A stretch of DNA of 64,000 nt from Limnohabitans sp. (GTDB lineage: Bacteria > Pseudomonadota > Gammaproteobacteria > Burkholderiales > Burkholderiaceae_C): assembly GCA_030158125.1 (NCBI GenBank), contig JAOATL010000003.1, positions 26,070-90,069 on the forward strand, in the 5' to 3' direction. Position numbers and translations under genes: made by a program. This document shows, piece by piece, positions 17,661 to 37,589 of this stretch. A model generated the notes under the pieces. The model saw only the letters and a list, made by a program, of their open reading frames with translations. It did not search any database and had not been told where the DNA came from. The stretch's first letter is position 1, and each line of letters starts with the position of its first letter.

Positions 17661-17808
17661 CGCCTGATTGTGCAAGTTTGCGCGCCATCGAATGACGCGG
17701 ACAAACCCTGTTGAGCGCTTAACCCTAAGCACATCAGGGCTTGGTGTTAACCCCAGTGAAGGCCTCTTTAGAATGCTCACATTACTGAATTCTAGACTTG
17801 GACTTCTC

Positions 17809-20479: not shown

Positions 20480-23400
20480 TCAAAGAATGCTGCTGCGTTG
20501 AATGTCTGTTTGCACCAACAACATGGCAGGTGCACCACTGGTGGCGGTGTAAACGCTGTAATAGATGCCGGCACTGTCCATCACCTCACCGGTGGTGTTC
20601 AAGGTCCAGCCGGTGGTGCTCACCTTGTCATCGCCGCTGCCGGTCACGGCCACTTGGTGGTAGTTCATCAGCGTTGAATTGATGCCCGTTGTACTGAATG
20701 TTGTTTTATTCCAGCCGCCTGCGCCCTGGCTGTTCAGGGCGCTTAAGTTGGCCCAGTTGCTGCCCGCCATGTCGAGTACATCGGCCACACGGATGGTCAA
20801 TTCGTTGGCGCCAGTGTTGGTGAGCAAATCAATGCGTTCAATGCTGTTGATTCGGCTGCTGCCTTCAATGTTGCCCGCGGAAGTATTGCTGACCAAGGAC
20901 AGATTCAAATTAAGGGTGCCCGTGCCGCCCAAGCGCAAGGTGTCAATGGCCCCACCCCCATCGATCTTGGCCAATTGAGTCGTGTTGCCACCTGCGCCAA
21001 ACTTACTTTGAAGTGCCGTGATGGTGGTTTGGTTCAAAACGAAGGTGTCTTTGCCCATGCCGCCCAACAGCACGTCTGCACCGTTGGAGGTGAAGGTGTC
21101 ATTGCCCGTTCCTGCTGAATTGCTGCCGCCCGCCAATGTTTGAGCGCCGGCAGAGGTGAGGGTGTCGTTGGCGCTGGTGCCTGTGTTGTCAACCGCACTG
21201 CCGGCGGCAAACGCGCCCGTCTTGCTGCCAAAGATGATGTAGGAGCGACCTGTTAGAACACTGCTGTGAGCTGCGTCATACCCATGTGCACCCACAATCA
21301 AATCGGCCAAGCCATCGCCGTTCACATCACCTGCAGCACCGACTGAATAGCCGCTCAAATCTTGTGCGCCTTGTCCAATGATGGCAAAGCCGCCCGTGTT
21401 GTTGAGAACATCACTCAGGTTGACATTGGTGGTGGTCGATTTGCCATAGACCACGAAGCTTCGGCCCGCGCTAGCGCCGCCATCAACTGAACCAAAAGGT
21501 GCGCCCAAAATAATGTCAGCCAAACCATCACCGTTGATATCACCGGCGCTGCTCACGCTGTGACCACTTTGCTCGACGGCCGTTGTGGACAGAATGGCAA
21601 AGCCACCAGTGCCTGCAGCAATTTGCCCTAAATCGATGGTGGCATTGGCGGTGTTTCGACCGAAGATGACATAGGTCTTGCCGCTCTCTGGGTTGGCATT
21701 GCCGGTGCCAGCAATGACGGCACCAATCAGAATGTCGCCCAAGCCATCGCCATTGATGTCGCCGCCGCTGCTCACCGACACACCGCTCATGTCTTGGCCG
21801 TTTTCTCCCAAAATCACAAAGCCGCCTGAGTTGTTTTTGATGTTGGTCAAATCAACGGCGGTGTTGCCTGTTTTGCCCAAGATGACGTATGTGGCACCGG
21901 CTTGAGTGCCTGCGGTGTCGTTGAAATAGGCACTCACCAGCAAGTCGGCTTTGCCATCGCCGTTGAAATCGCCCGCACTGCTGACCGAGGTCCCGCTTTC
22001 TTCGCCGGCTTGCCAACCCGAAATGACAAAGCCCGGCACAGTGCCGCCCACATTCCCTAAAGAGATGGTTTGCAAAGCGGATAAAGCCGCGCTGCCATAC
22101 ACAACATAGGTGTTGCCAGTGTTACCCGACAGTCCGCTGACTGTTTGAAAATGCGCACTGATGATCATGTCGATCCAGCCGTCACCGTTCACGTCACCTG
22201 CGCTACTCACTGAAAAACCTGCCGTATCAAAGGTGCTGGTGATGCTGAGCGCATCAGGCGTCGTGGCCAAAGCAGAGATGTCTTTTTGATATTCCGCCAA
22301 GCTGCCTGTCGTTGAATTCGCTTTTCCGTAGACCAAGAATGCGCCGCCTGGATTGGTGCTGGCGGCATCTTGTGGCATGCCAATTAACAGATCGGCCAGA
22401 CCATCGTTGTTCATGTCGCCTACACCCGCTACAGAAAAACCCAGCCAACCTTTGTTGACACTGTAGGTGTAATAGTGGCCATTGACCTGTCCGGTGCCGC
22501 TGTAACCTTTGGGCACCAGGCTGGTGTTCAGGCCGCCTTCATACAGCACGACACCACCACCTTGGGTGCGCAATGCGGTGTCGGTGAAGGTGTTGAGCGG
22601 CGCACCCATCACCACGTCGCCATACCCATCGCCATTGAAGTCGCCGGCCAAGCTGACCGCAAAACCAAAGTACGAACCCGTGTTGGGTGCCTCAATGGCA
22701 TAGCCGCCAATGTTGTTGGCAATGTCGTCCAAGTAGATGGCGTTTTTGAAGGTGTTGACGTTGAGGGTGGGGGAGGTGCCGGCAACGCCTGCATTGTATT
22801 TGGCATCTGTGTAGCTGCCAGCTGGCAAGGTGATGCTGGCAGCAACCAAAGGTGTGTCTGCAAAGGGTGTGTAAACCGCCGTGCGCGTCAGACCCGTTCC
22901 TGAAATGGCGCTGAGCGTGCCTTGTGTCACCACGACATCGCCCGTTGTGCCATTCCATGCAAAACTGCTGCCAGGGTCTTCACTGAAGGTGAAGGTGATG
23001 TTGGCGGTTTGACCCATGCCTAAGGTCGACACGTTTGAGGTGATGCTCACAGTCGGCACAACAGTGTCGTAGTTGATTGTGATGACCCCGCTGGCCGACC
23101 CCAGATTGGCCGCTGCATCTTGGTAGCTGTTGTTTTTGACCGAGACTGTGCTTGTGCCATAAGTAACATTGGCTGGCGGCGTGAAAATAAAGCCCCTCGA
23201 AACGCCCACTTGTTGGCTGGGGTGAGGGACCAAAGTGCCCGCGCCAGTCAATGTTAAGTCGCCAATGCTGCCATCCCAAGAGAAGCTGGTTCCTGGGTCT
23301 TCACTGAAGGTGAAATAAACCGGTGTGGTTTGGTTTGTAATCAAGTTGTTACTGCCTGCATAACCTGAAACAGTGGGTGTACGCGTGTCAATGCTGAGGC

Positions 23401-26400
23401 TGGGCGATGTGCCTGCCGTGCCCAAATTGCCTACGGTGTCCTGATAGCTAAGTGCCGTGACAGTGATACTGGCATTGCCACTGGCCAAATTGGCGGTGGG
23501 TGTAAACACTGCGGTACGTGTGAGCCCTGTGCCGCTGATGGCACCCAGTGTGCCGCCCGAAACCACCACATCGCCCGTTGTGCCATTCCATGCAAAACTG
23601 CTGCCAGGATCTTCGCTGAAGGTGAAGGTGATGTTGGCGGTACCGCCCGCTTTGACGGCAGAGACATTGGATGTGATGACCACAGACGGCGCAACCGTGT
23701 CAATGCTGATGGCAGGTGATGTGCCTGCGCTGCCATTGTTACCCGGCACGTCTTGGTAGCTGTTGGCCGTCACCGTGATGCTGGCATTGCTGCTGGCTGT
23801 GTTGGCTGTTGGTGTAAATGTAGCAGTCCGTGTCAGTCCAGTACCGCTAATCGCGCCCAATGTGCCGCCTAAAACACTGATGTCACCTGTTGACCCATCC
23901 CAGACAAATGTACTGCTCGGGTCTTCACTGAAGGTGAAGGTGATGGTGGCCGTTTCGCCTGTTTTCAAACTTAATTTGTTGCTTGTAATGGTGACAGTGG
24001 GGGGCGTTGTATCAACTTTTGCCCCCGAGTTGACAAGACCTGAAAAAAGCGGGCTGGCCGTGTTGCCAGACCTGTCTTGAATGGTTGCACCATTCAATGC
24101 CAATGAATTGGCCACAAGGCTTACGCCATCGGTATCTGTTTGACCTGGTAAAACTGTGTAGGCAAACTTTTTGCGAAGTTCACTTGTATCATAAAAAAAT
24201 TCGGCTTTGACTAAAGTACTGCCAATGAGCAAATCAACTGTAGGCAAGCCATTGCTTATACCAACCATGGCACGTTCTGGGTAAAAAAGATACACGACAA
24301 TTTCTGTACCCGCCTTGACTGTATACGTGTTGTTGTTGGGTAACTGTACAGAAGAGATGCTCAGCCCCAAGGTGTCTATTGAAATACCGGGTAGGCTGCC
24401 CAGTGTGCCTGCATTGCCGGCGACATCGCTGTAGCTGCCTGCAGTTACCGCAATGCTGGCATTGCCGCTGGCCAAATTGGCGGTGGGTGTGAAGATGGCG
24501 GTACGTGTAAGCCCCGTGCCACTGATGGCACTCAAGGTGCCGTTGCTGAGCGTGATGTCGCCTGCGCTGCCATCCCATACAAAGGTACTGCCTGGATCTT
24601 CAGAAAACGAGAACGTGATGTTGGCCGTTTGGCCGATCAATAAGTTTGATTTGTTACTTGAGATGCTCACCGTGGGTGCGGTGGTGTCGACTTTGTAGGC
24701 GGCGTTGTCTGCACGGGCAATGGCGGTGAGAACTGCGTTGTTGCCGGCGCTGTCTTTGATGGAGCCACCATTCAGTTGCAAGGCATTGACGCCATAGCTC
24801 AAACCATTCGCATCGTTCTCACCTGCTACAACGGTGTAGTTGAACAGCAAGTCGGTGGTGCCAGAGCCGGAAACATATGTGGCCGAGTTGCTGGCGCCGC
24901 CAATGTTCAAAACCACCTTGGGGTTGCCACCTGTGGCATTGACGGTCACAGCTTCACTGAAGGTGGCTGTGATTTGCACCACATCACCTGCATTCAAAAT
25001 GTTGCTCACGATGCCGCTGGCGCCAGTGATGTTCATGCTGGTGAGGGTGGGCACGCCCGTGTCGATGGACACGCTGGCACTGCTGCCGACTTGGCCTGGG
25101 TTGCCAGCCAAGTCGGTGTAGACAGCCGCGGCTGTTGATACGACTCCGGCTACTGTGCTGCCAGCTGTGGGCGTGAAAGTGGCAGTGCTGACATAGTTGG
25201 CGCCACTTAGTACAAAGGGGCTGAGGGCACCGAGGGTGCCGCCAGTGACGGTTAAATCGCCTGCAGTGCCATTCCAAGTGAAGCTGGTGCCTGTTTTGTC
25301 GTTGGCTGTGACGGTGAGGGTGGCCGTTTCGCCTACTTTCAGCGAAGCCACGTTGAAAGCCAGCGACACGGAAGGGGCAAGCGTGTCAACCATGTATGCG
25401 CTGTTGCTGCTCACGGCGGCAGAGGTGGGTGTCGATGTGTTGCCACTGGCATCCGTGAGCACAGCGCCATTCAAGCTGAGCGCATTCAGTGCAATGGCAA
25501 TGCCATCGACATCGTTTTGCCCAGATGCAATGGTGGTGGTGAACACCAGGGTGTTACTGCCAGCGCCCGATACATAGGTGGCCTGCACAGTGCTGCTCCC
25601 TACCAGCAAGGCCAAGGTGGGCGAGCCGCCCGCCACATTCAAATTGACCACTTCATTGAAGGTCACACTGACGTTGGCGGTATCAGCTTCATTCAAATAG
25701 TTATTCAGAATGCCAGTTGAGCCGCTGAGTGCAATTGAAGAAATGGTAGGCGCCAGGGTGTCAAGGGTGAGGCTGGGTGTGCCGCCTGCACTGCCATTGT
25801 TGCCAGCAGCATCTTGGTAAGTGCCAGCGCCAACAGAAATGCTTGCGGTGCCTGAGTTCACACCAGGTGTAGGGGTGAATACCGCAGTGCGCGTAACGCC
25901 TGTGCCCGAGATAGCGCTCAAGGTGCCATTGCTGAGCGTCACATCGCCCGCGGTGCCATTCCACACAAACGTGTTGCCCGGATCTTCGCTGAAGGTGAAG
26001 GTGATGTTGGCTGTTTCGCCTACTTTGACCTGAGCCACATCTGACGTGATGCTTAAGAAGGGTGCAGTGGTGTCGACGGTGTAGCTGCTGTTGTCAGCGG
26101 TTGCTGGCACGCTGAGCGTGGTGGTGTTGGTGCGCGGATCCTTCAGGGTGCTGCCATTCAATGACAGTGAATTGGCATTGAGGGCAATGCCGTTGGCATC
26201 GGTTTGACCTGCCAGAATGGTGTAGGTGAACAGCAAATCGGCGGTGCCTGCACCAGACGCATAGTTGGCAGTGACCGTGCTGCCGCCAATCTGCAAGGCC
26301 ACTGTGGGTGAGCCTGATGTGGTGTTCAGTGTTTGGGCTTCAGAAAAGTGGGCGGTAACCGTGACCACATCGCCTGCATTGAGGGCATTGTTTTGCACGC

Positions 26401-29400
26401 CTACTGCGCTGGTAATTTGCACATCCATCAAGGTGGCGGGCGAGGTGTTTAGCACCAAGCTGCCAAGTGTGTTGCCGACCCCTAAATTGCCTGCACTGTC
26501 TGTGAACAGATCGTTGTTGACGGTGATGCTGGCGCTACCGCCGGTTAAACCCTGTGTTGGCAAAAATGTAGCGGTGCGGGTGAGGCCTGTGCCGCTGATA
26601 GCGGACAAGGTGCCGTTGACCAATGTCACATCGCCCACACTGCCGTTCCATGTGAAAGTGCTGCCAGGGTCTTCACTGAAGGTGAAGGTGATGAGCGCAG
26701 TTTCGCCGCTTAAGAAAGTGCTGCGACTGCTGCTGATGTTCACCACCGTGGGTGCGGTGGTGTCGACCAAATAGTTGGCATTGTCGGCGACAGCAGAAAA
26801 GTTCAGAGTGGGTGTGTTGCCTGCTGTGTCGGTTAAGACTTTGCCATTCAAGCTGAGGCTGTTGGCATTGATGGCAATGCCATTGACATCGTTTTGGCCG
26901 GTCAGAATGGTGTAGTTAAAAACCAGTTGTGCGGTGCCAGCGCCCGAAACATATTGCGCGCTGACTGCACTGCTGCCAATGGTCAGATCAATGCTGGGCG
27001 TACCTACGTTGGCATCCAAAAACACAGCCTCCGTGAAATTGACAGCCACCGACACCACGTCGCCTGAGTTCAATAAATTATTTTGAATGCCCGTGGCACT
27101 GAGTAAGGCCACACTGGCAACGGTGGTGGTTGTGGTGTTGACACTGATGTTTGCAGATTTATCAGTCACACCAGCCGATGCCTCTTGACCGATGTTGCCA
27201 GCAGCGTCGGTATAGCTGTTGAGTGCAATGGCCACGTTGGCGGTACCAGCACTCACGCCAGAAGTGGGCGTGAGAAGCGCGGTGCGGGTTAGCGGATTTC
27301 CCGTGGTGCTTAGCGCGCCCAAGGTGCCTCCTGAAACCACCACGTCGCCGCTGGTGCCATCCCATACAAAGCTGCTGCCGGGATCTTCACTGAAGGTGAA
27401 GGTGATCGTCGCGGTTTGACCGGAAATTAAGGCGTTGGTGCTGGTGGTGACGGTGGCCGTTGGGCGGGTTGTGTCCACCAAATACTTGGCGTTATCTGCT
27501 ACTGCCAATGCGGTGATGCTGCTGATGTTGCCCGAGGCATCCGTCAAAGTACCGCCATTCAGGCTGATTGCATCTGCACCGATGGCCACACCGTTGCTGT
27601 CGTTGTGTCCGCTGACCACGGTGGCCGTAAAGACCAAGGCATTGCTGCCAGAACCCGACACGTATGTGGCTTGGACCGAACTGCCACCCACATTCAGTGT
27701 CAAGGTGGGTGTGCCGCCGGAGGTGTTGACTGTGATCAGATCATTGAAAGTGACGGTGGCACTGAGCGTATCGCCAGCGTTTAAATTGTTGACAGTGGCA
27801 TCTGATGCGCTGACCACACCGCCTGTGGAACTGCTAAGTGCCAAGCTTGAGAGGGTGGGTGCGAGGGTGTCTAAATTGAGCGTGGGTGTGGTGCCTGCAG
27901 TGCCATTGTTGCCTGCTGCATCTTGGTAGCTGTTGCCTAAGACGGTGATGCTGGCTGAACCATTGCCTTGGTTTGCGGTCGGTGTGAAGACGGCGGTGCG
28001 TGTCAGCCCTGTGCCACTGATGGCGCCCAAACTGCCACCGGAAACCACGACATCGCCAGCTGCGCCGTTCCATGAAAAACTGCTGCCTGGCGCTTCAGAA
28101 AAAGTGAAGGTGATGGTGGCAGTGTCTGTTGCCAGCAAGTTTGACTTGTTGGATGTGATGAGCACGCTAGGTGCTGTGGTGTCCACTGAATAATTGAGGT
28201 TGCTACTGACAAATGAAGACAAAGTGTTGCTGGCATTGCCATTGGCATCTATGAGGGTGGCACCGTTCAATGTAATTGCATTGGCCGGTATGGCGACGCC
28301 ATCGGCATCGGTTTGGCCACTGACGATGATGGTGCTGAACACCAAAGCGTTGGTCCCCGAACCCGACACGTAGGTGGCTTGTACCGTGCTGCTGCCAATC
28401 TCCAATGCCAAAGTGGGCGCGCCCCCGTCTGTGTTGAGGGTTACGACATCGCTGAAGGTTGCAGTCACAGACAAGCTATCGCCGGCATTCAGGGTGTTGT
28501 TGAGTTGACCCGTTGCGCCGCTCAATGCCACGGCGCTGATGCTGGGTGCCAAGGTGTCAATGCTGATGCTGGGTGTGGTGCCAGCGGTACCCAAGTTGCC
28601 TGCTACATCGTGATAGCTTGAATCGGCCACGGTGATGCTGGCTGTGCCACTGCCCAGATTGACCGTGGGTGTGAACGTGCTGCGCCGCACGGTACCCAAG
28701 CCTGTGAGTGCGCTCAGGGTGCCCCCCGTCACCGTCACATCCGACACAGAAAAGCTTGTATCGGGGTCTTCTGAAAATGTGAAGTAAATCAAACTGGTTT
28801 CGCCACTCTTCAAGCTTGCCGCAGAAGACGTGATGCCGACGCTGGGTGCTGTGGTGTCCACAGGGTACAAGAGGTTGTCGGCCACGATGGCATTGCCCAA
28901 AGTGACGGCATTGCCAGGCACACTTCTGAGTGTGCTGCCATTGAGGGTGATGGCAGCTGCGGGAATGGCAATGCCATTGGCGTCATTTTGGCCAGACAAA
29001 AGGGTGTAACTGAACACAAAGTCGGTGCTGCCACTGCCAGACACATATGCCGCTTGAACCAAGGTGTTGCCCACCATCAACCCCAGTGTGGGTGAGCCAC
29101 CCGTGGTGTCCAAGGCGATGGCTTCGCTGAAAACCACCGTGGCAAACACCACATCGCCTGCATTCAACAGATTGTTCACAGCGCCCGTGGCGCTGCTCAG
29201 GCCGACTTGACTGACAGTTGGGGTGGACGTTGAAAACGTGAGCAAAGGTGTGCCGGCGGCACCGCCGGTGTTGCCCGCCGCATCGGTGTAGGTGCCCGCA
29301 TTGACGGCAATGCTGGCGGTACCCGACACCACATTGGCCGTAGGTGTGAAGGTGGCGGTGCGCGTTAATCCGCTGCCACTGAGGTTGCTCAAAGTGCCAT

Positions 29401-32400
29401 CACTTACAAGCACATCGCCCGCATTGGATGCCCAAACAAAACTGCTGCCAGGGTCTTCGCTGAATGTAAAGCTGATGGCTGCGGTCTCTCCAATTTTCAA
29501 AGTGGCAACATCCGAGCTGATGCTGAGCGTGGGGGCTGTGGTGTCCACCAGGTACTGTGCATTGTTGGCAATTGCAATCGACGTGATGGCGCTGCTGTTG
29601 CCTGTCGCATCTTTGAGGGTGGCACCATTCAGGCTGAGTGCATTCAGGGCGATGGCGACGCCATCGGTGTCGGTTTGTCCGTTGACGATGGTGCTCGTGA
29701 AAACCAAGGTGTTGGTGCCAGAGCCCGACGCATACGTGGCCTGCACAGTGCTGCTGCCAACGACCAGCGCCAATGTGGGTGAACCTGCCGTGGTGTTGAG
29801 CGTGACGGCTTCGCTGAAGCTGACTGTGGCGCTGAGCGTGTCGGTGGCGTTGAGAAGTTTGACTGTGGCATCGGCGGGATTTAGGACGTAGCCTGTGGCG
29901 CTGCTCAATGCCACACTGGCCACGCTGGGTGCCAGGGTGTCCAAATTAAGTGTGGCCGAACTGCCAGCACTGCCGTTGTTGTCGGCCAAGTCTTGATAGG
30001 TGCCCGCATTGACTGCAATGCTGGCCGTGCCGGTTGCCAAGTTGGCCGTGGGTGTCAACACTGCTGTTCGCGTCAGCCCCGTGCCACTGATGGCACTCAA
30101 GGTGCCACCGGTGACGAGCAAGTCACCAGCGCTGCCGTCCCATGCAAAGCTGCTGCCCGGGTCTTCAGAAAATGTGAAAGTGATGTTGGCGGTGTCACCG
30201 GCTTTGAGGCTTGCCAGATTGGAGGTGACTGCCACCGTGGGCGTTGTGGTGTCAACCAAGTAGTCTGAATTGCTGCTGACAGCACTGGCGCTGTTGATGC
30301 TGCTGTTACCGGCGATGTCTTTCAGTGTGGCGCCATTCAGGCTAAGCGCATTCAAGTCAATGGCCACACCATCGGTGTCGGTTTGTCCGTTGACAATGGT
30401 GGTCGTGAAAACCAAGGCATTGGTGCCAGAGCCCGATGCATAAGCGGCCTGCACAGTGCTGCTGCCCACCAACAGGGCCAGAGTGGGAGAACCACCCGAC
30501 GTGTTCAAAGTCACTGCATCGTTAAAGTTGAGCGTGGTACTGAGCGTATCGCCCGCATTCAGCAGGTGGTTCATATCGCCCGTAGCACCACTCAAGGCCA
30601 CCGAAGTGACGGTGGGCGCTAAGGTGTCGATGCTGATGCTGGGTGAAAGACCCGCGGTGCCAAGGGTGCCGGCCGCGTTTTGATAGGCATTGGCCGCCAC
30701 GGTGATGCTGGCACTGCCACTGGCCAAATTGGCCGTGGGTGTGAAGACGGCTGTGCGTGAAGTTCCCGTGCCACTGATGGCACCCAAGCTTCCGCCGGTC
30801 ACGGCGATGTCACCGGTGCTGCCATCCCATGCAAAGCTGCTTCCTGGGTCTTCAGAAAATGTGAAGGTGATGGTGGCGGTTTCTCCGACCTTGAGTGCAT
30901 TGGCACTGCTGGTGATGTTGACGCCGGGCGACAAGGTGTTAATGGTGAGAAGGGGGGTGGTGCCTGCGCTGCCATCGTTGCCCGCTGCATCTTGGTAGCT
31001 GTTGGCGGCCACTGTGATGCTGCCGCTGGTGTTGCCTAAGTTGGCTGCGGGCGTGAATGTTGCCGTGCGTGTCAAACCATTGCCACTGATGGCGCTCAGT
31101 GTTCCGCCGCTCACAACAATGTCGCCTGACGTGCCATTCCACGCAAAGCTGCTGCTGGGATCTTCGGAAAAAGTGAAGGTGATGTTGGCAGTTTCGCCAG
31201 TGCTGAGTGTGGCGACGTTAGAACTGATGACGACACTGGGCGCCAGGGTGTCTAGGCTGATGCTAGGGGAAATGCCCGCTGTGCCATTGTTACCCGCAGC
31301 ATCTTGGTAGGTGTTGGCGGCAATGCTGATGCTGGCGCTACCGCTGGCCACGTTGGGTGTAGGTGTGAAGGTGGCTGTGCGTGTGAAGCCACTGCCGCTG
31401 ATGGCGCCCAGAGTGCCGCCCGAAACCAGGATGTCACCTACAGTGCCGTCCCAGCCGAAGCTGCTGCCCGGGTCTTCAGAAAATGTGAAGGTGATGCTTG
31501 CAGTTTGCCCAACTTTGAGCGCAGTCACATTGGCCGTGATGAGCACGCTGGGGGCTGTTGTATCTGCTGGAGGAGGAGGAGGAGGAGGAGGTGGAGGAGC
31601 TGGAGGAGGTGGAGGTGGAGGAGTAGGATTTTCAGTCACCACCAAGGATTCAGAGCTGAGCACGGACACATTGCCAGCCAAGTCAACACTGTAGAGTTGA
31701 TAAATGGCCGCAGGCAAGCCACTCACTGAAATCGGTGTGTTGGTTTGAACAGCCTCGATGGCCACATGCTTGGCGAAGAGCGGGCTGAGATTTTCCAAGT
31801 CAGTCAAACTTGCAATCGGACTGGTGCTGGGCACCAAGTAGGCTTTGCCAAGTTCGTTGCTCTGAACCAAGACCGAGGCTGTCAAGGTTTGCGCCAGTGT
31901 AAGTATTCCGGCTTCCAGTGTGGCAATGGGAGGCGTGGTGTCAACCATGTGCAAGGGGTTGCTGATGACTGCACTGGCGGTGTTCACGGTGGGGTTACCC
32001 AACCCGTCTTTGAGTGTGGCCCCGTTCAATTGAAGTGCGTTGCTGGCAATGGCCACACCATCAAGGTCTGTTAGACCACTGGCGATGGTGGTGACAAAGA
32101 CCAAGGCTTGGGTGCCAGAGCCTGAAACATACAAGGCCTGAATGCTTTGGGAACCTATCAGCAAAGTGAGCGTAGGACTGCCACTGCTTGTGTCGAGTTC
32201 AACTGCGCCACTGAAGGATACGGTGGCGGTGAGGGTGTCGCCTGCATTGAGGCGTTGGTTCATCTCACCTGTGGCACTGGTGAGGGCCATGGCTGTGATG
32301 AGGGTGCTGGCAGGCGGAGGAACGGGTGGTGGAGGAACGGGCGGTGGAGGAACGGGCGGTGGAGGTGCCGGCGGCGGCGTTACAGGCGTGACCGGTGTGT

Positions 32401-32947
32401 CAGAGCCGCCACCACTTAGCGCAATCACACCGAGCACCGCACCAGTCACATCGCCTAAACCAATGCCTGCTGCGACGGGTGCTGCAGGCAAAAATGCCAA
32501 AGCATTGCCAGGGTTGAGCAGTGCCACTTTGCAATCGAGTGCACCATCACGTTCAGTCCACACCAAACTTTCGGGGACCTCAAATGCCTCCTTGGGTAAA
32601 TGGGAGGTGACTTGCACTTCTTCACACGACTGATCTTCGAGTTTGTAAACAGCAGCGTTGGGCAACGGAGAAGCGCTGGCCACAAAATAGTCTTGCAGTT
32701 CAAGTGAAAGGACATCATTGACCAAAACGTGCAGATTTTTTTTCGAGCGGAGCAGTTTCTGACCTTTTACGTGGCCGCCTGCATCGGGGTCAATCAGCTT
32801 GTATTGAAATCCCACTTGGGCTTTGACAACGAGGGTGCGCGTGTTTGGCGCTGAAGCGACTTGGGCGTCACTCAATTTGTCTAGTTGAATAACCTGTACG
32901 CGACCTTCAGGTGTGGTGGCGTGAAATTGGATGTCATTGAATGTCAT
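20480..32947 (-). CDS. Giant type I-secreted adhesin with Ig-like repeats and FG-GAP propeller
   Basis: 4155 residues, nearly one fifth of the window. Order: BapA-like prefix (about 1-150); Ala/Gly-rich hydrophobic stretch with VAAG at 158-161; polyproline linker (185-213); one B-type Ig module; a unique domain (about 336-436); second polyproline linker (about 442-460); then 26 further Ig-like modules to about 3395. Type A modules (16 in all) carry ITFTFSEDPGSSF.W.G..GD; type B (11 in all) carry LNAGD...SPTL.L..GSS and LNGATL.D..GN. Seven FG-GAP repeats (DxNGDGxxD) span about 3403-3905, and a degenerate RTX stretch and C-terminal secretion region follow. The export operon lies directly upstream. 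Likely a surface or released biofilm adhesin; its ligand is unknown. Confidence 0.88.
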   Translation of the reverse strand: MTFNDIQFHATTPEGRVQVIQLDKLSDAQVASAPNTRTLVVKAQVGFQYKLIDPDAGGHVKGQKLLRSKKNLHVLVNDVLSLELQDYFVASASPLPNAAVYKLEDQSCEEVQVTSHLPKEAFEVPESLVWTERDGALDCKVALLNPGNALAFLPAAPVAAGIGLGDVTGAVLGVIALSGGGSDTPVTPVTPPPAPPPPVPPPPVPPPPVPPPASTLITAMALTSATGEMNQRLNAGDTLTATVSFSGAVELDTSSGSPTLTLLIGSQSIQALYVSGSGTQALVFVTTIASGLTDLDGVAIASNALQLNGATLKDGLGNPTVNTASAVISNPLHMVDTTPPIATLEAGILTLAQTLTASVLVQSNELGKAYLVPSTSPIASLTDLENLSPLFAKHVAIEAVQTNTPISVSGLPAAIYQLYSVDLAGNVSVLSSESLVVTENPTPPPPPPPAPPPPPPPPPPADTTAPSVLITANVTALKVGQTASITFTFSEDPGSSFGWDGTVGDILVSGGTLGAISGSGFTRTATFTPTPNVASGSASISIAANTYQDAAGNNGTAGISPSISLDTLAPSVVISSNVATLSTGETANITFTFSEDPSSSFAWNGTSGDIVVSGGTLSAISGNGLTRTATFTPAANLGNTSGSITVAANSYQDAAGNDGSAGTTPLLTINTLSPGVNITSSANALKVGETATITFTFSEDPGSSFAWDGSTGDIAVTGGSLGAISGTGTSRTAVFTPTANLASGSASITVAANAYQNAAGTLGTAGLSPSISIDTLAPTVTSVALSGATGDMNHLLNAGDTLSTTLNFNDAVTLNTSGGSPTLALLVGSSTVQAAYASGSGTNALVFTTTIVNGQTDTDGVAIDLNALSLNGATLKDIAGNSSINSASAVSSNSDYLVDTTTPTVAVTSNLASLKAGDTANITFTFSEDPGSSFAWDGSAGDLLVTGGTLSAISGTGLTRTAVLTPTANLATGTASIAVNAGTYQDLADNNGSAGSSATLNLDTLAPSVASVALSSATGYVLNPADATVKLLNATDTLSATVSFSEAVTLNTTAGSPTLALVVGSSTVQATYASGSGTNTLVFTSTIVNGQTDTDGVAIALNALSLNGATLKDATGNSSAITSIAIANNAQYLVDTTAPTLSISSDVATLKIGETAAISFTFSEDPGSSFVWASNAGDVLVSDGTLSNLSGSGLTRTATFTPTANVVSGTASIAVNAGTYTDAAGNTGGAAGTPLLTFSTSTPTVSQVGLSSATGAVNNLLNAGDVVFATVVFSEAIALDTTGGSPTLGLMVGNTLVQAAYVSGSGSTDFVFSYTLLSGQNDANGIAIPAAAITLNGSTLRSVPGNAVTLGNAIVADNLLYPVDTTAPSVGITSSAASLKSGETSLIYFTFSEDPDTSFSVSDVTVTGGTLSALTGLGTVRRSTFTPTVNLGSGTASITVADSSYHDVAGNLGTAGTTPSISIDTLAPSISAVALSGATGQLNNTLNAGDSLSVTATFSDVVTLNTDGGAPTLALEIGSSTVQATYVSGSGTNALVFSTIIVSGQTDADGVAIPANAITLNGATLIDANGNASNTLSSFVSSNLNYSVDTTAPSVLITSNKSNLLATDTATITFTFSEAPGSSFSWNGAAGDVVVSGGSLGAISGTGLTRTAVFTPTANQGNGSASITVLGNSYQDAAGNNGTAGTTPTLNLDTLAPTLSSLALSSSTGGVVSASDATVNNLNAGDTLSATVTFNDLITVNTSGGTPTLTLNVGGSSVQATYVSGSGSNALVFTATVVSGHNDSNGVAIGADAISLNGGTLTDASGNISSITALAVADNAKYLVDTTRPTATVTTSTNALISGQTATITFTFSEDPGSSFVWDGTSGDVVVSGGTLGALSTTGNPLTRTALLTPTSGVSAGTANVAIALNSYTDAAGNIGQEASAGVTDKSANISVNTTTTTVASVALLSATGIQNNLLNSGDVVSVAVNFTEAVFLDANVGTPSIDLTIGSSAVSAQYVSGAGTAQLVFNYTILTGQNDVNGIAINANSLSLNGKVLTDTAGNTPTLNFSAVADNANYLVDTTAPTVVNISSSRSTFLSGETALITFTFSEDPGSTFTWNGSVGDVTLVNGTLSAISGTGLTRTATFLPTQGLTGGSASITVNNDLFTDSAGNLGVGNTLGSLVLNTSPATLMDVQITSAVGVQNNALNAGDVVTVTAHFSEAQTLNTTSGSPTVALQIGGSTVTANYASGAGTADLLFTYTILAGQTDANGIALNANSLSLNGSTLKDPRTNTTTLSVPATADNSSYTVDTTAPFLSITSDVAQVKVGETANITFTFSEDPGNTFVWNGTAGDVTLSNGTLSAISGTGVTRTAVFTPTPGVNSGTASISVGAGTYQDAAGNNGSAGGTPSLTLDTLAPTISSIALSGSTGILNNYLNEADTANVSVTFNEVVNLNVAGGSPTLALLVGSSTVQATYVSGAGSNTLVFTTTIASGQNDVDGIAIALNALSLNGAVLTDASGNTSTPTSAAVSSNSAYMVDTLAPSVSLAFNVASLKVGETATLTVTANDKTGTSFTWNGTAGDLTVTGGTLGALSPFVLSGANYVSTATFTPTAGSTVAGVVSTAAAVYTDLAGNPGQVGSSASVSIDTGVPTLTSMNITGASGIVSNILNAGDVVQITATFSEAVTVNATGGNPKVVLNIGGASNSATYVSGSGTTDLLFNYTVVAGENDANGLSYGVNALQLNGGSIKDSAGNNAVLTAIARADNAAYKVDTTAPTVSISSNKSNLLIGQTANITFSFSEDPGSTFVWDGSAGDITLSNGTLSAISGTGLTRTAIFTPTANLASGNASIAVTAGSYSDVAGNAGTLGSLPGISIDTLGLSISSVQLPNNNTYTVKAGTEIVVYLFYPERAMVGISNGLPTVDLLIGSTLVKAEFFYDTSELRKKFAYTVLPGQTDTDGVSLVANSLALNGATIQDRSGNTASPLFSGLVNSGAKVDTTPPTVTITSNKLSLKTGETATITFTFSEDPSSTFVWDGSTGDISVLGGTLGAISGTGLTRTATFTPTANTASSNASITVTANSYQDVPGNNGSAGTSPAISIDTVAPSVVITSNVSAVKAGGTANITFTFSEDPGSSFAWNGTTGDVVVSGGTLGAISGTGLTRTAVFTPTANLASGNASITVTALSYQDTVGNLGTAGTSPSLSIDTRTPTVSGYAGSNNLITNQTTPVYFTFSEDPGTSFSWDGSIGDLTLTGAGTLVPHPSQQVGVSRGFIFTPPANVTYGTSTVSVKNNSYQDAAANLGSASGVITINYDTVVPTVSITSNVSTLGMGQTANITFTFSEDPGSSFAWNGTTGDVVVTQGTLSAISGTGLTRTAVYTPFADTPLVAASITLPAGSYTDAKYNAGVAGTSPTLNVNTFKNAIYLDDIANNIGGYAIEAPNTGSYFGFAVSLAGDFNGDGYGDVVMGAPLNTFTDTALRTQGGGVVLYEGGLNTSLVPKGYSGTGQVNGHYYTYSVNKGWLGFSVAGVGDMNNDGLADLLIGMPQDAASTNPGGAFLVYGKANSTTGSLAEYQKDISALATTPDALSITSTFDTAGFSVSSAGDVNGDGWIDMIISAHFQTVSGLSGNTGNTYVVYGSAALSALQTISLGNVGGTVPGFVISGWQAGEESGTSVSSAGDFNGDGKADLLVSAYFNDTAGTQAGATYVILGKTGNTAVDLTNIKNNSGGFVILGENGQDMSGVSVSSGGDINGDGLGDILIGAVIAGTGNANPESGKTYVIFGRNTANATIDLGQIAAGTGGFAILSTTAVEQSGHSVSSAGDINGDGLADIILGAPFGSVDGGASAGRSFVVYGKSTTTNVNLSDVLNNTGGFAIIGQGAQDLSGYSVGAAGDVNGDGLADLIVGAHGYDAAHSSVLTGRSYIIFGSKTGAFAAGSAVDNTGTSANDTLTSAGAQTLAGGSNSAGTGNDTFTSNGADVLLGGMGKDTFVLNQTTITALQSKFGAGGNTTQLAKIDGGGAIDTLRLGGTGTLNLNLSLVSNTSAGNIEGSSRINSIERIDLLTNTGANELTIRVADVLDMAGSNWANLSALNSQGAGGWNKTTFSTTGINSTLMNYHQVAVTGSGDDKVSTTGWTLNTTGEVMDSAGIYYSVYTATSGAPAMLLVQTDIQRSSIL
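21230..22740 (-). repeat. Seven FG-GAP repeats in the adhesin
   Basis: Seven consecutive units of about 65-75 codons, each with a calcium-loop motif: DFNGDGYGD, DMNNDGLAD, DVNGDGWID, DFNGDGKAD, DINGDGLGD, DINGDGLAD and DVNGDGLAD. Seven is the number of blades in the integrin alpha-subunit propeller, so a closed propeller is plausible. Confidence 0.85.
22745..32308 (-). repeat. Tandem Ig-like module array in the adhesin
   Basis: 27 modules of roughly 100 codons. Order from the N-terminus: B, unique domain, A-A-A, then B and A alternating ten times, then A-A-A. At DNA level a stretch coding TFTFSEDPGSSF recurs almost unchanged in most A modules, so recombination or assembly collapse is possible. 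Confidence 0.85.
31568..31623 (-). repeat. Polyproline codon tract (second linker)
   Basis: An almost pure GGA/GGT tract on the plus strand codes a Pro-rich run with one Ala in the adhesin. It separates the unique domain from the main Ig array. Confidence 0.85.
32316..32360 (-). repeat. 15-bp tandem repeat in the first proline linker
   Basis: Three units GGAGGAACGGGYGGT (32316-32330, 32331-32345, 32346-32360), each coding a Pro-Pro-Val-Pro-Pro-type pentapeptide. In-frame gain or loss of units would change linker length without breaking the gene. Confidence 0.85.
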
Positions 32948-32953
32948 GAAATA

Positions 32954-34171
32954 TTAGCGCTCGTGCAATGCGCCCGAAAAAGCTTTTTGAACTGGTTTGA
33001 CGAGGTACTGAAGAACCGACCTGGCGCGTGTTTGGATGTCGAGGGTGGCTGTCATGCCCGGCTTGAGGTCACTCAAGCGCAAACTGTTGGGGGTGTGCTT
33101 GGGTGCGCGATCAGCTTCGGCATTTGCATGGACTTGAACTTGCACCCGGTAATAGGTTTGTGCGGCACCCGAGGGGCTGCTTTCTGTCAGGGTGTCTGAA
33201 CTGATGTAACTCAGTGTGCCATTCAGCATGCCGTAAACACTGTAGTCAAATGCATCAAACTTCAAGCTCACAGGCAAGCCAACGCGCAATTCACCAATGT
33301 CGCTTGGATGAATTTTGGCTTCAAGCACGTGGCCACCTGTGCTAGGTGAAATGTGCATGAGTTCATCGCCAGAGCGCAACACGCCGCCAACCGTGTTGAT
33401 GCGCAAAATCTTGACAATGCCATCCACGGGCGTGGTGAGCACGCTGTGATCGAGCAAGCTTTGACGTTCATGCAGTTTGAATTGATTGGCCGAAATCTCT
33501 TCTTCTAATCGAACCACATCTTGCTTGGCGTCTTGCAAGTACTTATTTTTCAAGCTGGCCATTCGCCCTTGCGTTTCTTGTACTTGACGTTGCGCGCGCA
33601 TCATTTCCAGCTGACTCACATCGCCTGTTTTGAAAAGAGTTTGGCTGATGTGCAACTCTTCTTCCGAGAGTTTTAAGCCTGCCTGCAGCATTTTCAAATC
33701 ATCTTCTAAGCTTTGTCTTTTTTGCGCGTAGGCTAGTTGCTGCCCTGACCTGAACACACTGTTTTGGGTGCTGCGGGTGTCAAAAATCAAAGCTTTGCCA
33801 GAGGACTCTGCGGAGGCCCTTGCCAAGGCGACTTGCAAGGCGTTCAGTTTGGTTTGAATTTCTTGAAATGCTGCTTTGGAGCGAGTGGTTTCCAGGTGCG
33901 CCACGACTTGGCCTGCATGAACATGCTGACCTTCCGATACCAATATTTGTGTCAGTACACCGCCGTCAGCGGCTTGGATGATTTGGTTGCGCGCAATGGC
34001 AATTATTTGACCGTTGCTGCGCACGGTTTGCGCCATGTCGGACATGCTGGCCCATGCAAAAAAACTCAGCAGGCCCAATAACAACAAGCGTGTACCGGTG
34101 AGTTGCCTGATGAGACGGTGCATCCCTCTTTGTGGGGTGATTGGCGGCGGCCAATGGGGGTCTGTGTTCAT
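32954..34171 (-). CDS. Type I secretion periplasmic adaptor (HlyD family)
   Basis: 405 residues. A single N-terminal membrane helix (about 28-45, LLLLGLLSFFAWASM) is followed by a biotinyl-lipoyl-like part (ADGGVLTQILVSEGQHVHAGQVVAHLE), a long coiled-coil hairpin (about 95-235, rich in Gln/Glu/Lys) and a beta-barrel part with LRSGDELMHISPSTGGHVLEAKI and DLKPGMTATLDI. This is the classic HlyD/LapC layout, bridging the inner-membrane ABC exporter to the outer membrane channel. It overlaps the ABC gene by 4 bp (34168-34171) and ends 6 bp before the adhesin start, so the adhesin is its evident substrate. Confidence 0.93.
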   Translation of the reverse strand: MNTDPHWPPPITPQRGMHRLIRQLTGTRLLLLGLLSFFAWASMSDMAQTVRSNGQIIAIARNQIIQAADGGVLTQILVSEGQHVHAGQVVAHLETTRSKAAFQEIQTKLNALQVALARASAESSGKALIFDTRSTQNSVFRSGQQLAYAQKRQSLEDDLKMLQAGLKLSEEELHISQTLFKTGDVSQLEMMRAQRQVQETQGRMASLKNKYLQDAKQDVVRLEEEISANQFKLHERQSLLDHSVLTTPVDGIVKILRINTVGGVLRSGDELMHISPSTGGHVLEAKIHPSDIGELRVGLPVSLKFDAFDYSVYGMLNGTLSYISSDTLTESSPSGAAQTYYRVQVQVHANAEADRAPKHTPNSLRLSDLKPGMTATLDIQTRARSVLQYLVKPVQKAFSGALHER

Positions 34172-36216
34172 GCTTGAAGTTGTTTGAGCACTTGGTCTTT
34201 GGGGCCATCCAACACAATCTCGTGTTTCGCGATGACCACCAGTCGATCGACCAGTGCCAACATTTCCGGTTTGTGGGTGACCAAGATCAAGGTGTCTTGC
34301 GGGCGAAGGGCTTGTGCGAGTGCTTGCGTCACATGATCGGCCAATTGCCTGTCCATGGCCGCTGTGGGTTCATCCATGAGCCAAATGCGAGGACGCCTTA
34401 AAAAGACGCGTGTGAGGTTGACCAGCTGGCGCTGTCCGCCTGACAGCCCATGACCGCCTTCGTGGATGGGCAAGTCAAAGCCCAAAGGGTGATGGGCCAG
34501 CACGGCTTGCTGCAGCCCTGTTTGTTGCGCCGCGCCCTTGAGAATGTCATCACCTGGATCGGTCATGCCAACCAGCAAGTTCTCGCGCAAAGTACCTTCA
34601 AAGAGGCGCCCCTCTTGTTGCAAATAGCCTAATTGTTCTGCCAACAAAGGTTTTGCAATGGCAGACAAGTCGACGCCATCGAGCGTGATGAGGCCAGCTT
34701 GCGGTTTGTACATGCCGCTGAGAAGTCGAAGCAGCGTGGTTTTGCCTGCACCAATGGGACCCAGAACGCCAATTTTTTCACCACCTTTGATGTGCAACTT
34801 GGTGATCTTCAAGGCGGTTTGTTGGTGATAGCCAAAAAGTACATCATTGAGAGAAAAATGTCCCCCCACCGAGTCCAACACCACCGGTGTTTGATTGTGG
34901 TGATCGTTTGGGAGTTGCCAGATTTGGTCCAGTCCCTGCAATGCCGACTTGCAGTGGCCCCATTGCAGAAGTTGCGAGGGCAAGGCCGCAATGGGTTGCA
35001 AAATGCGATTGGACAACATGGTGCAGGCAATGAGACTTCCCATGCTGAGCTCGCCTTTTGAAATCATGAGTGCACCGGCGGCCACCATGGCAACGTAGGC
35101 GATTTGCTGCAGTGCTAGAAGTTGGTGTTGTGACGATTCACTGATGTATCGCAAACGCAGATCTTCTCTGCGTGCAGTGTCTGAGATGTTTTGCCAAAGG
35201 CTGAGTTGTCGCCAGCCGCCTTGTCCAGATTTCAAGGTTTCAGCGCCTTCAATGGCCTCCACCAAAAGACCTGTTTTGCGCATGTTGGCCAATGCGGCCT
35301 GATGGCTTCGGTTTTCAATCTCTTTGAGACCGCGCAGGCCCAAACTCAGAGACAAAAGCAAAAACACAAAAGGTATGAGCGCCAACCAGCCCGCAATTGA
35401 CCAAAGCGCCAGTGTGAAGACGATGGCAAACGGCGCATCGATGATCATTTGCGTGGCCGAGCCGGTGAGAAACGCTCGCACACTCTCATAGGACTTGAGT
35501 TGGCCCGCCAAACTGCCCACACTGGTGGGCAATTTGTCCATTCGCACCTGAAGCAGTCGCATGAAAACTTCGCGCCCCAAGCGCTGATCGACCGCCTCAA
35601 TGACTTTTTCGTTCAACTGCGCCCGAAGTGTTCTGGCCAGCCACTCAAATCCAATGGCGCCCAGCACGCCTAGGCTCAACACCCATAGCGTGGCACTGGC
35701 GCCAGTGGGGACCACGCGGTCATAAACGTGCATGCTGTAGAAAGAAATGCCCAGGGCTACAAAATTCAGCATGACACCGTTCAGGCTGGCATCGATGAAA
35801 GTGCTGCGGTGCTTTTGAATCTCTAGCATGATCAATCGCCAGACTGGGCTAGCGGTGCGATCAAAGGGCACGCTGAGGTTGATTTTTGCGAGCGCAAAGT
35901 TGCCTAAGTTGTGATGGGTTGTTTCGCCATCTGCACCTTCAAGCACCCATTGCATTTGGCTGTTGAAGCTTTTAAGAACGCGCCATTCACCTTGGTGGTC
36001 AATGGCAAGGCAGGGCAGCAGCGACGGGTCTATGTTGGCGCTGCTGTACCACTGCACCGACTGCCAATTTAAAAATAATTTCAGTTGGAGCAGCAGCTTG
36101 GGCGGCTGCAAGTCATGTGGACTGATGCGTTCTAGGATGGCCAGCAGTTCGTGCTTGTCTAGACTTTGGCGTTGCAGTTGTGCCAAGCGTTGAAGTGCGG
36201 GAAGTAGGGATGTCAT
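34168..36216 (-). CDS. Type I secretion ABC transporter (LapB/LssB-like)
   Basis: 682 residues. The N-terminal region (about 1-125) is a C39-like domain without the catalytic Cys, as in exporters of uncleaved RTX adhesins. The membrane domain (about 145-420) has six predicted helices. The ATPase domain has Walker A GPIGAGKTT, signature LSGGQ and Walker B IWLMDEPTAAMD. It energises export of the adhesin from the cytoplasm in one step. ATG 36216 gives a 4-bp overlap with the tolC-like gene; an upstream start at 36264 lacks support. It overlaps hlyD by 4 bp. Confidence 0.93.
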   Translation of the reverse strand: MTSLLPALQRLAQLQRQSLDKHELLAILERISPHDLQPPKLLLQLKLFLNWQSVQWYSSANIDPSLLPCLAIDHQGEWRVLKSFNSQMQWVLEGADGETTHHNLGNFALAKINLSVPFDRTASPVWRLIMLEIQKHRSTFIDASLNGVMLNFVALGISFYSMHVYDRVVPTGASATLWVLSLGVLGAIGFEWLARTLRAQLNEKVIEAVDQRLGREVFMRLLQVRMDKLPTSVGSLAGQLKSYESVRAFLTGSATQMIIDAPFAIVFTLALWSIAGWLALIPFVFLLLSLSLGLRGLKEIENRSHQAALANMRKTGLLVEAIEGAETLKSGQGGWRQLSLWQNISDTARREDLRLRYISESSQHQLLALQQIAYVAMVAAGALMISKGELSMGSLIACTMLSNRILQPIAALPSQLLQWGHCKSALQGLDQIWQLPNDHHNQTPVVLDSVGGHFSLNDVLFGYHQQTALKITKLHIKGGEKIGVLGPIGAGKTTLLRLLSGMYKPQAGLITLDGVDLSAIAKPLLAEQLGYLQQEGRLFEGTLRENLLVGMTDPGDDILKGAAQQTGLQQAVLAHHPLGFDLPIHEGGHGLSGGQRQLVNLTRVFLRRPRIWLMDEPTAAMDRQLADHVTQALAQALRPQDTLILVTHKPEMLALVDRLVVIAKHEIVLDGPKDQVLKQLQA

Positions 36217-37589
36217 GGCGCACCCCAGCCAGAGACGCCATGGGCCAGAATGTGCAGGCGCCAATAAGTTTGCAGCAAGGCCATGTCATTGCTCACAATT
36301 GCCAGTTCGGCTTGGGCGGTTTCGCGTGCAGCGTTCATCACATCGATCCAGCTTTTTTTGCCATTGATAAATTGGCGTTCCCAAGCGAGTTGAAGTTCTT
36401 GTGAAGACTCTAAATTCAGGCGCAGTGCAGCAAGCTTGCTTTTGCTTGCAATTGCATTGATGTACTCAGTCTGAACCGATTCAATGACGCTTCTTTGCGC
36501 TGCCTCAATTTCTTCCAGGGTGCTGTTGCGCTTGACTTGCAGCGCTGCCAATTGATGCACAAGACTGAAGCCAGCACCTGTGCTGGCGGTGAGGCCTATG
36601 AACACACGATTGGTGGGCGGTACATTGGCGTACGCATAATGGCCGCGTTGATGCTCTGCCCGCACATACACCTCAGGTTGGAGGGCTGCACGTTTTTCTG
36701 CCAGCTCTGCCAATTGCACTTGCAACACCATGCGCAGTCGCTGCAACACTGGCGATTGGGCCAGGCTGCGCAACTCCCAGTCGGCCAGCGAGATGGATTC
36801 GTTTGCCGTGAGCAGCTGTGAAAGATGGGCTTGCGTTTCGCGGTCATTGGCGCTTTGCAGTTTGAACCCCATATTGGCGACGTTGGGAATCCATTGCTGG
36901 AGTCGAACCCATGCACGACTTTCTTGTTGTTGTGCGTCACTTAGCGCCTGTCCAGCTTGTAGCAAACGCAATTGGGCGTAATGGGCTTCACTGCGTGAGG
37001 ACAAGCCCTGATCGACACGACGCATCATTTTGCTGAGCAGTTCAGATTGAATGGCTTGACTGTTTCGCAACACCACTTGTTGGCGTTGGGCGCTGACAAG
37101 TTCGGCCCAGGCTTGAATGGTTTGAATGGCCAGTCCTTGTTGAACTTCAGCCAATCGAGCTTGTTCTAGGCCTTGCATGGCCTCTGCTTTGTCAGATTGC
37201 GCTGTTAATCGGCCGCCGGTCCACAGTGCTTGGTGCACCTTGAATGTGAGAACTTGGGGTGGTCCTGCATAAGAGGGGTCGGGCGGGTGGGACTGTGCCC
37301 GCTCTATCGATACGGAGGGTGTCGGCCAATAGGCTTGCTGCGCAATGCGAGTTTGCAAGCCGGCAGCTTGCACGGTTTGCCATTGGCTTTTGACTTGCGG
37401 GTGCTCTAAAACAAGCTTTTCAAGCAGAAGCTGGAGGGCAGCCGCGCTTTGGAAAAAAAGTGACGGCTGTGCAGCCAAGCCAAAATCAGGATCTTTTGCG
37501 TTGGAGTAAAGCGGCTGAGCACTTATCAACGCAAAAATACATAGCAAGGGAAGCCTATATATTCTTTTGTTTTTGTAAAAATGAATCAA
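36213..37589 (-). CDS. TolC-family outer membrane channel of type I secretion
   Basis: 458 residues with a signal peptide (about 1-31, LLCIFALISAQPLYSNA). Two repeated OEP halves are visible, the first with QTRIAQQAYWPTPSVSIERA and KVHQALWTGGRLTAQSDKAEA, the second with LAEKRAALQPEVYVRAEHQ. The C-terminal part is helical with WERQFINGKKSWIDVMNAARE. It is the first gene of the four-gene secretion operon and overlaps the ABC gene by 4 bp. It forms the outer membrane exit duct for the adhesin and possibly for the RTX protease at 10156. Confidence 0.9.
   Translation of the reverse strand: MIHFYKNKRIYRLPLLCIFALISAQPLYSNAKDPDFGLAAQPSLFFQSAAALQLLLEKLVLEHPQVKSQWQTVQAAGLQTRIAQQAYWPTPSVSIERAQSHPPDPSYAGPPQVLTFKVHQALWTGGRLTAQSDKAEAMQGLEQARLAEVQQGLAIQTIQAWAELVSAQRQQVVLRNSQAIQSELLSKMMRRVDQGLSSRSEAHYAQLRLLQAGQALSDAQQQESRAWVRLQQWIPNVANMGFKLQSANDRETQAHLSQLLTANESISLADWELRSLAQSPVLQRLRMVLQVQLAELAEKRAALQPEVYVRAEHQRGHYAYANVPPTNRVFIGLTASTGAGFSLVHQLAALQVKRNSTLEEIEAAQRSVIESVQTEYINAIASKSKLAALRLNLESSQELQLAWERQFINGKKSWIDVMNAARETAQAELAIVSNDMALLQTYWRLHILAHGVSGWGAP

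Follow-up and report, generated by a model that had tools for sequence, protein, structure and literature searches.

The window analysed here, 64,000 nucleotides of contig JAOATL010000003.1 from Limnohabitans sp., carries on its minus strand a gene for an adhesin-type protein of 4155 amino acids with two kinds of module (20480..32947, ATG start). An earlier note on this DNA had described the open reading frame (ORF) as a 4155-residue adhesin with 27 Ig-like modules, and the ORF is genuine: its coding frame lies on the minus strand, and the plus strand of 20480-32947 carries many stops. Immediately upstream and on the same strand are three genes that form a predicted type I secretion system (T1SS) operon. 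The operon opens with a TolC-family outer membrane factor (36213..37589; PF02321 OEP, 1e-29; TIGR01844 below cut-off) and continues with an LssB-like type I secretion ABC permease/ATPase (34168..36264; PF00005, PF00664, and TIGR03375 at 7.2e-178 and 593 bits, below the cut-off of 693) and a HlyD-type periplasmic adaptor (32954..34171; TIGR01843 at 2.1e-75, above cut-off), whose gene stops 6 bases before the adhesin start. Such adjoining T1SS genes are characteristic of RTX/LapA-type giant adhesins, as is a long extender of tandem beta-sandwich domains, which is present here in the predicted folds.

Profiles built from the protein's own modules count 16 modules of type A and 11 of type B, the same numbers as in the earlier note, and refined profiles agree. 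All scores of A profiles on B modules and of B profiles on A modules are below 0 bits, so the two kinds separate without blending. A scan of the own genome with the Pfam family Big_12 (PF19078) gave 16 places at E ≤ 0.001, all within the adhesin gene. The A modules pass the Big_12 cut-off at 16 of 16 places and the B modules are absent among them; when three of the 11 B modules were scanned alone, one reached 13.6 bits (cut-off 27) and two gave no match. No Pfam family (three of 11 B modules submitted) and no NCBIfam family (two of 11) exceeded its cut-off. A PDB sequence search with an A-A-B-A stretch gave a best E value of 0.17. On the structure model of the rod, Foldseek ranked titin and other Ig proteins at the top, a ranking that reflects the modelled Ig-like fold and not kinship with titin, and the top VIA match was the adhesin extender 6xi3. 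The modules are thus modelled as Ig-like, and the description as an adhesin-type protein whose two sharply distinct kinds of module alternate is supported.

The full order, read from the N-terminus and with all coordinates on the minus strand, is as follows. An N-terminal domain (residues 1-185; 32393..32947) precedes a lone B module, B0 (residues 213-335; 31943..32311), recognised by the own B profile at 164.5 bits and by the refined one at 159 bits. Then come a third module (residues 336-440; 31628..31942), a proline-rich linker, a proximal AAA triplet (residues 463-774, modules 2-4; 30626..31561), ten B-A pairs (residues 776-3083, modules 5-24; 23699..30622) and a distal AAA triplet (residues 3084-3398, modules 25-27; 22754..23698), the array being delimited by the own profiles and, for the distal triplet, also by the relatives. 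The protein finishes with an FG-GAP propeller and a C-terminal end. The third module is Ig-sized and without family: no A or B profile and no Pfam or NCBIfam entry matches it. The order AAA-(BA)10-AAA given in the earlier note is thus correct for the array, which covers 26 modules, but omits the eleventh B module, B0, that stands apart near the N-terminus. When 10 B and 16 A modules are placed at random in 26 slots, an unbroken (BA)10 is expected with p 1.3e-6 and the absence of BB neighbours with p 0.004. Mean identity between modules inside the protein is 0.56 for A and 0.48 for B; Tandem Repeats Finder detected no tandem repeat in the array of modules and reported repeats only in the two proline-rich linkers of the gene.

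Comparison with 17 relatives showed that most of this array is shared between species. Three relatives come from genomes of the same genus (G006, G001 and G031) and 14, all cluster representatives, from a protein search; eight of the latter begin inside the array, and nine of the 17 reach the N-terminal domain. Among the matches listed (best 120 of 597), the closest named protein is that of Limnohabitans sp. Hippo4, P0047, whose tail shows 93% identity. All 17 possess an alternating array, three or four A modules in a row at its distal end before the head, and a tail of 750-760 residues. Alignment to the relatives and trees define a collinear core of 21 modules (modules 7-27, residues 1005-3398; 22754..29935, minus strand), which corresponds one-to-one (21/21) in 13 of the 17 relatives in an ordered alignment. 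Two others, P0058 and P0079, are truncated, yet their core is complete across their reach, while P0065 is without modules 22-23 and P0064 without modules 22-24. Unforced reciprocal best hits fall at the same positions for 21/21 modules in G001, 21/21 in G031 and 17/21 in G006, where modules 22-25 fail, and an extra A-A-B occurs near modules 23-24 in five of the 17. Modules at the same position in different species have mean identities of 0.76-0.93 over modules 7-27, with 0.59 at module 23. In trees of eight proteins, single clades were obtained for eight of nine B positions and nine of 12 A positions (support 0.54 to 1.0), the exceptions being 23B, 16A, 22A and 25A. The collinearity of modules 7-27 in 13 of 17 relatives shows the alternating core to be old, and together with the position-wise clades it indicates that the core was inherited as a whole. 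These comparisons also bear on whether a repetitive gene was misassembled in a genome that is split over 24 contigs. The identical 27-module order is found in P0043, a non-identical database protein of 4155 amino acids whose listing gives a 569-kb contig, and the 13 relatives that share the core order include the single-contig genome G006; an assembly artefact is therefore extremely improbable, and the array is taken as correctly assembled.

The strict alternation was surveyed in two database searches (best 120 of 597 and best 120 of 295 matches), to which the three genome relatives and the window protein were added. Among the matches listed, 132 of the 226 proteins scanned hold at least six modules; 24 of these, including the window protein, have alternating runs of at least 11, and the other 108 have runs of at most 3. 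None of the 24 alternating proteins has BB neighbours, and elsewhere up to 30 A-A (P0125) or 25 B-B neighbours (P0154) were found. Distant modules may be missed in this survey because its profiles were built from this lineage. Three more distant proteins, P0127 (6170 amino acids), P0133 (2334) and P0126 (3704), show 46-67% identity in the module region and likewise alternate; in P0127, about 22 A modules are followed by a run of B-A pairs, which makes it a possible intermediate.

Upstream of the core the relatives vary, with plain A runs of 0-7 modules and as many as five BA pairs. The proximal AAA triplet recurs in the same form in one of the nine relatives that reach the N-terminus, the sister allele P0043, while P0067 has a broken A-x-AA. 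G031 and G001 carry in-phase copies of core blocks upstream of the core; in G031, the block 2A-3B corresponds to 6A-7B (83/86%) and the block 5B-6A to 23B-24A (72/79%). Length change thus sits upstream of the core, in plain A runs and, in the longer relatives, also in in-phase duplicated blocks. The earlier note had suggested that the array grew as a B-A pair was duplicated, the A triplets being kept at both ends. Of the two triplets, the distal A run is indeed kept in all 17 relatives, but the proximal one is not. That the array grew in this lineage through repeated B-A pair duplication between fixed AAA caps would agree with the strict phase and the absence of BB neighbours in all 24 alternating proteins, with the in-phase blocks of G031, and with Mantel tests of co-duplication in the longer relatives G031, G001, P0068 and P0092, where the rate-corrected A-then-B correlation is positive (r 0.40-0.63, p ≤ 0.0022). 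Because of these four positive results the test is able to detect block duplication. In G006 the raw A-then-B correlation is 0.44 (p 0.045) and the rate-corrected one 0.016 (p 0.45). The window protein gave no co-duplication signal, either for B-then-A (raw r -0.21, p 0.76; rate-corrected 0.14, p 0.20) or for A-then-B (raw 0.13, p 0.27; rate-corrected -0.035, p 0.58), and a nine-pair core consensus, run for B-then-A only, gave none either, with p at least 0.197 there and in the window protein. Modules at the same position in different species are moreover more alike than modules within the protein, and the proximal cap is found in only one of nine relatives. A very old pair duplication could have escaped the Mantel test. 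As an account of this protein, pair duplication is quite unlikely; we retain it for the longer relatives only.

Behind the distal triplet, the structure model predicts an integrin-alpha-type seven-bladed propeller (residues about 3402-3919; 21191..22744, minus strand), with the seven FG-GAP blades and Ca-loop motifs that define this type. The C-terminal region (residues 3920-4155; 20480..21190, minus strand) carries degenerate RTX-like motifs (GTGNDTF, GGMGKDTF) and a predicted T1SS signal end. A weak serralysin-family match in the adhesin (0.0019) lies far under the cut-off, and several tail homologues bear PF00353, the RTX repeat family. Of 120 homologues examined, 27 have the tail finishing at most 60 residues from their C-terminus. 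The tail is present in 16 of 60 genomes searched, a count that includes the own genome and some weak matches. Counted in the same way, the N-terminal domain is present in 8 of the 60 genomes, with an identity of 46-72% in five genomes of the genus and 32% in two others. One genome of the genus (G026) contains 45 tail matches on several contigs, for example C17, C7 and C16, spread over a number of giant ORFs, the longest of 9150 residues, which is a local expansion of propeller-tailed proteins. A tail homologue in another genome (G020:C71, L018) has two internal stop codons, and its gene looks decayed.

The modules next to the propeller are the most variable part of the array. Modules 22-26 (residues 2755-3294; 23066..24685, minus strand) are hypervariable, with mean pairwise identities among the relatives of 0.53-0.78: the values are 0.87-0.92 for modules 14-20, then 0.81, 0.75, 0.53, 0.69, 0.75 and 0.78 for modules 21-26, and 0.88 for module 27. 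Variability peaks at module 23B (24014-24373), and six clusters at 85% were found at modules 23 and 24. In the tail, the first five blocks of 60 residues are conserved at 0.90-0.95 and the next four at 0.85-0.91. At the DNA level, identity to G031 is 64-80% in the proximal array and the secretion genes and 80-88% in the middle of the gene. Over 20.2-25.4 kb it reaches 91-98% in 11 of 13 windows, the two remaining windows (21.4-22.2 kb) being at 78 and 85%, with G006 closer there, and it falls to 67-79% in the downstream flank. A control stretch of 6 kb is 85% identical to G006 and 81% to G031, and the control gene lon 89% and 88%, respectively. The window allele and P0043 differ at 97 places, 88 of which lie within the last 1865 residues. 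The distal half of the gene is a mosaic, and the identity pattern suggests that homologous recombination between species exchanged the distal segment. For the variable stretch by the head, escape from phages or grazers, and not ligand specificity, would fit the mosaicism and the allelic clusters close to the distal end, as well as the conservation of the first 300 residues of the head at 0.90-0.95; we consider this explanation doubtful.

Two other genes of the window may be mentioned here. A met-zincin gene (DUF4953/DUF5117; 17668-20472, plus strand) converges on the adhesin gene from the downstream side, and the DNA adjoining the adhesin there aligns in G006, G001, G031 and G003, showing a separate pattern of identity. 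A second T1SS substrate is likely encoded some 8 kb away from the adhesin (10156-12165, plus strand): this 669-amino-acid protein has RTX repeats (PF00353) in five stretches, its C-terminal region is of the serralysin type, and it matches an M10 peptidase weakly.

The best explanation, to which we assign a probability of about 0.72, is that the gene encodes a giant surface adhesin exported by type I secretion, with an N-terminal anchor, an A/B rod, a propeller head and an exchanged head-proximal segment. The N-terminal domain would remain in the envelope, a retention role that is predicted from its position alone. The A/B modules would form a long rod, likely stiffened by calcium at the linkers. 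The linker ahead of A modules has an almost invariant Asp, which is less strictly kept ahead of B modules, so unequal linker sites are predicted, and stiffening of the rod by Ca2+ at such sites would be consistent with published work (PMC7493085). The predicted integrin-alpha-like propeller would serve as the head. Distally the array has its old core, modules 7-27, shared with the relatives; its proximal part changes in length. Interspecies homologous recombination would swap the head-proximal segment, with an effect on recognition or exposure, and would leave the secretion genes and the greater part of the array in place. Unlike neighbours in the rod would lower misfolding among similar adjacent domains and slippage between adjacent copies, which, by analogy with other repeat proteins, may be the reason for the alternation.

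Several results weigh against this explanation or parts of it. The two kinds may be very distant relatives at most, the profile comparison of A with B having given a probability of 36% (E 0.0004 for one comparison). Plain A runs in the same proteins weaken the folding and slippage argument, and exact DNA repeats of at least 24 nt (11 in the adhesin gene, 10 of them A-A; 0 in G006; 14 in G001 and 13 in G031, all A-A) leave the slippage idea undecided. In the head model, 120 of 757 residues have a pLDDT below 50. RTX repeats are below Pfam detection in the adhesin, with no PF00353 match, and mean identity falls to 0.73-0.74 over the final 120 residues of the tail, so that variability extends past modules 22-26. 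The mosaic could come partly from uneven constraint, against which the identity to G031 in excess of the control stretches argues. The N-terminal domain has no sequence match in Pfam, NCBIfam or PDB, to a known retention domain or otherwise; a likeness to BapA-type prefix domains was supported by none of the searches and is not claimed. LapG (PF06035) was found in none of four genomes, as compared to one of 14 control genomes, and LapD (PF16448) in none of the four, the controls likewise being all negative. LapG-type release was rejected as a candidate: besides the missing LapG, the Ala-Ala-Gly stretch near residue 160 is missing from G006, G001 and G031.

The lack of LapG in the four genomes would also suit a biofilm-matrix or homophilic cell-cell protein, released or self-associating via its modules, in place of an adhesin whose head binds a foreign ligand. 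BapP is active in biofilms and present in the supernatant (PMC12153261), and the G5-E arrays of Aap/SasG self-associate (PMC4261907). However, the predicted distal head and the adjoining hypervariability suggest a recognition surface, and a matrix role is unlikely. Extending the preferred explanation of an exported adhesin, the protein might tentatively be viewed as a freshwater recognition system in which a fixed (BA)n rod with an integrin-alpha-like head bears a five-module specificity cassette that is swapped between species as an allele. This extension is possible, if somewhat doubtful; if true, the secretion and rod parts would be a single conserved platform for targets that change.

Interest attaches to the alternating core with its fixed positions, to the head, predicted to be integrin-like, and to the mosaic segment next to it, which is hypervariable. 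Two module kinds keep strict alternation, at positions that are fixed from species to species. Other proteins run the same A or B families plainly, and this offers a natural experiment on why stalks alternate, whether for folding, for stiffness or for genetic stability. The segment of variable modules near the integrin-like head suggests where recognition by lake bacteria may evolve. Adhesins of such bacteria are hardly described in the literature searched; adhesin transport genes are mentioned for Limnohabitans metagenome-assembled genomes in a study of Daphnia microbiota (PMC6971282). No description of the design seen in the window protein was found in a literature search that lacked most subscription papers, and the comparisons below refer to the accessible parts of the cited sources.

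Similar to the window protein, the RTX/Bap-type T1SS adhesins (LapA, MpIBP, AhLap, MhLap and SiiE) possess T1SS genes, a non-repeated N-terminal domain, a long beta-sandwich extender, a distal head and a C-terminal end. Their extenders are built mostly from a single repeat family, to which a few odd domains are added, and SiiE has two kinds of sandwich, for which strict alternation is not stated in the accessible text (PMC7493085, PMC12077191), whereas the window protein alternates two families strictly and has an integrin-type propeller as its predicted head. The Acinetobacter Bap likewise contains several Ig-like module types, with repeat and C-terminal regions that vary between strains, and its authors suggested that diverse modules limit slippage and aggregation; an alternating two-module core at fixed positions is not described for Bap in the available parts of that paper (PMC4647330). 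Strict alternation of two different folded units occurs in the staphylococcal SasG/Aap proteins, where the G5-E alternation was proposed to be a safeguard against misfolding. Unlike the window protein, these are cell-wall-anchored, with near-identical G5-E repeats, and G5 is not a beta-sandwich, the folds being unrelated (PMC4261907). BapP of Pseudoalteromonas tunicata combines three classes of beta-sandwich repeat with a beta-propeller, and its gene cluster suggests a T1SS, but its propeller is N-terminal and five-bladed and its repeats number 12 (PMC12153261). Finally, bacterial integrin-type beta-propellers, whose function in bacteria was called unknown in 2011, share the integrin alpha fold, the seven FG-GAP blades and the Ca-loop motifs with the predicted head; in contrast to these, the propeller of the window protein is situated near the C-terminus of a giant protein encoded behind T1SS genes (PMC3192720).
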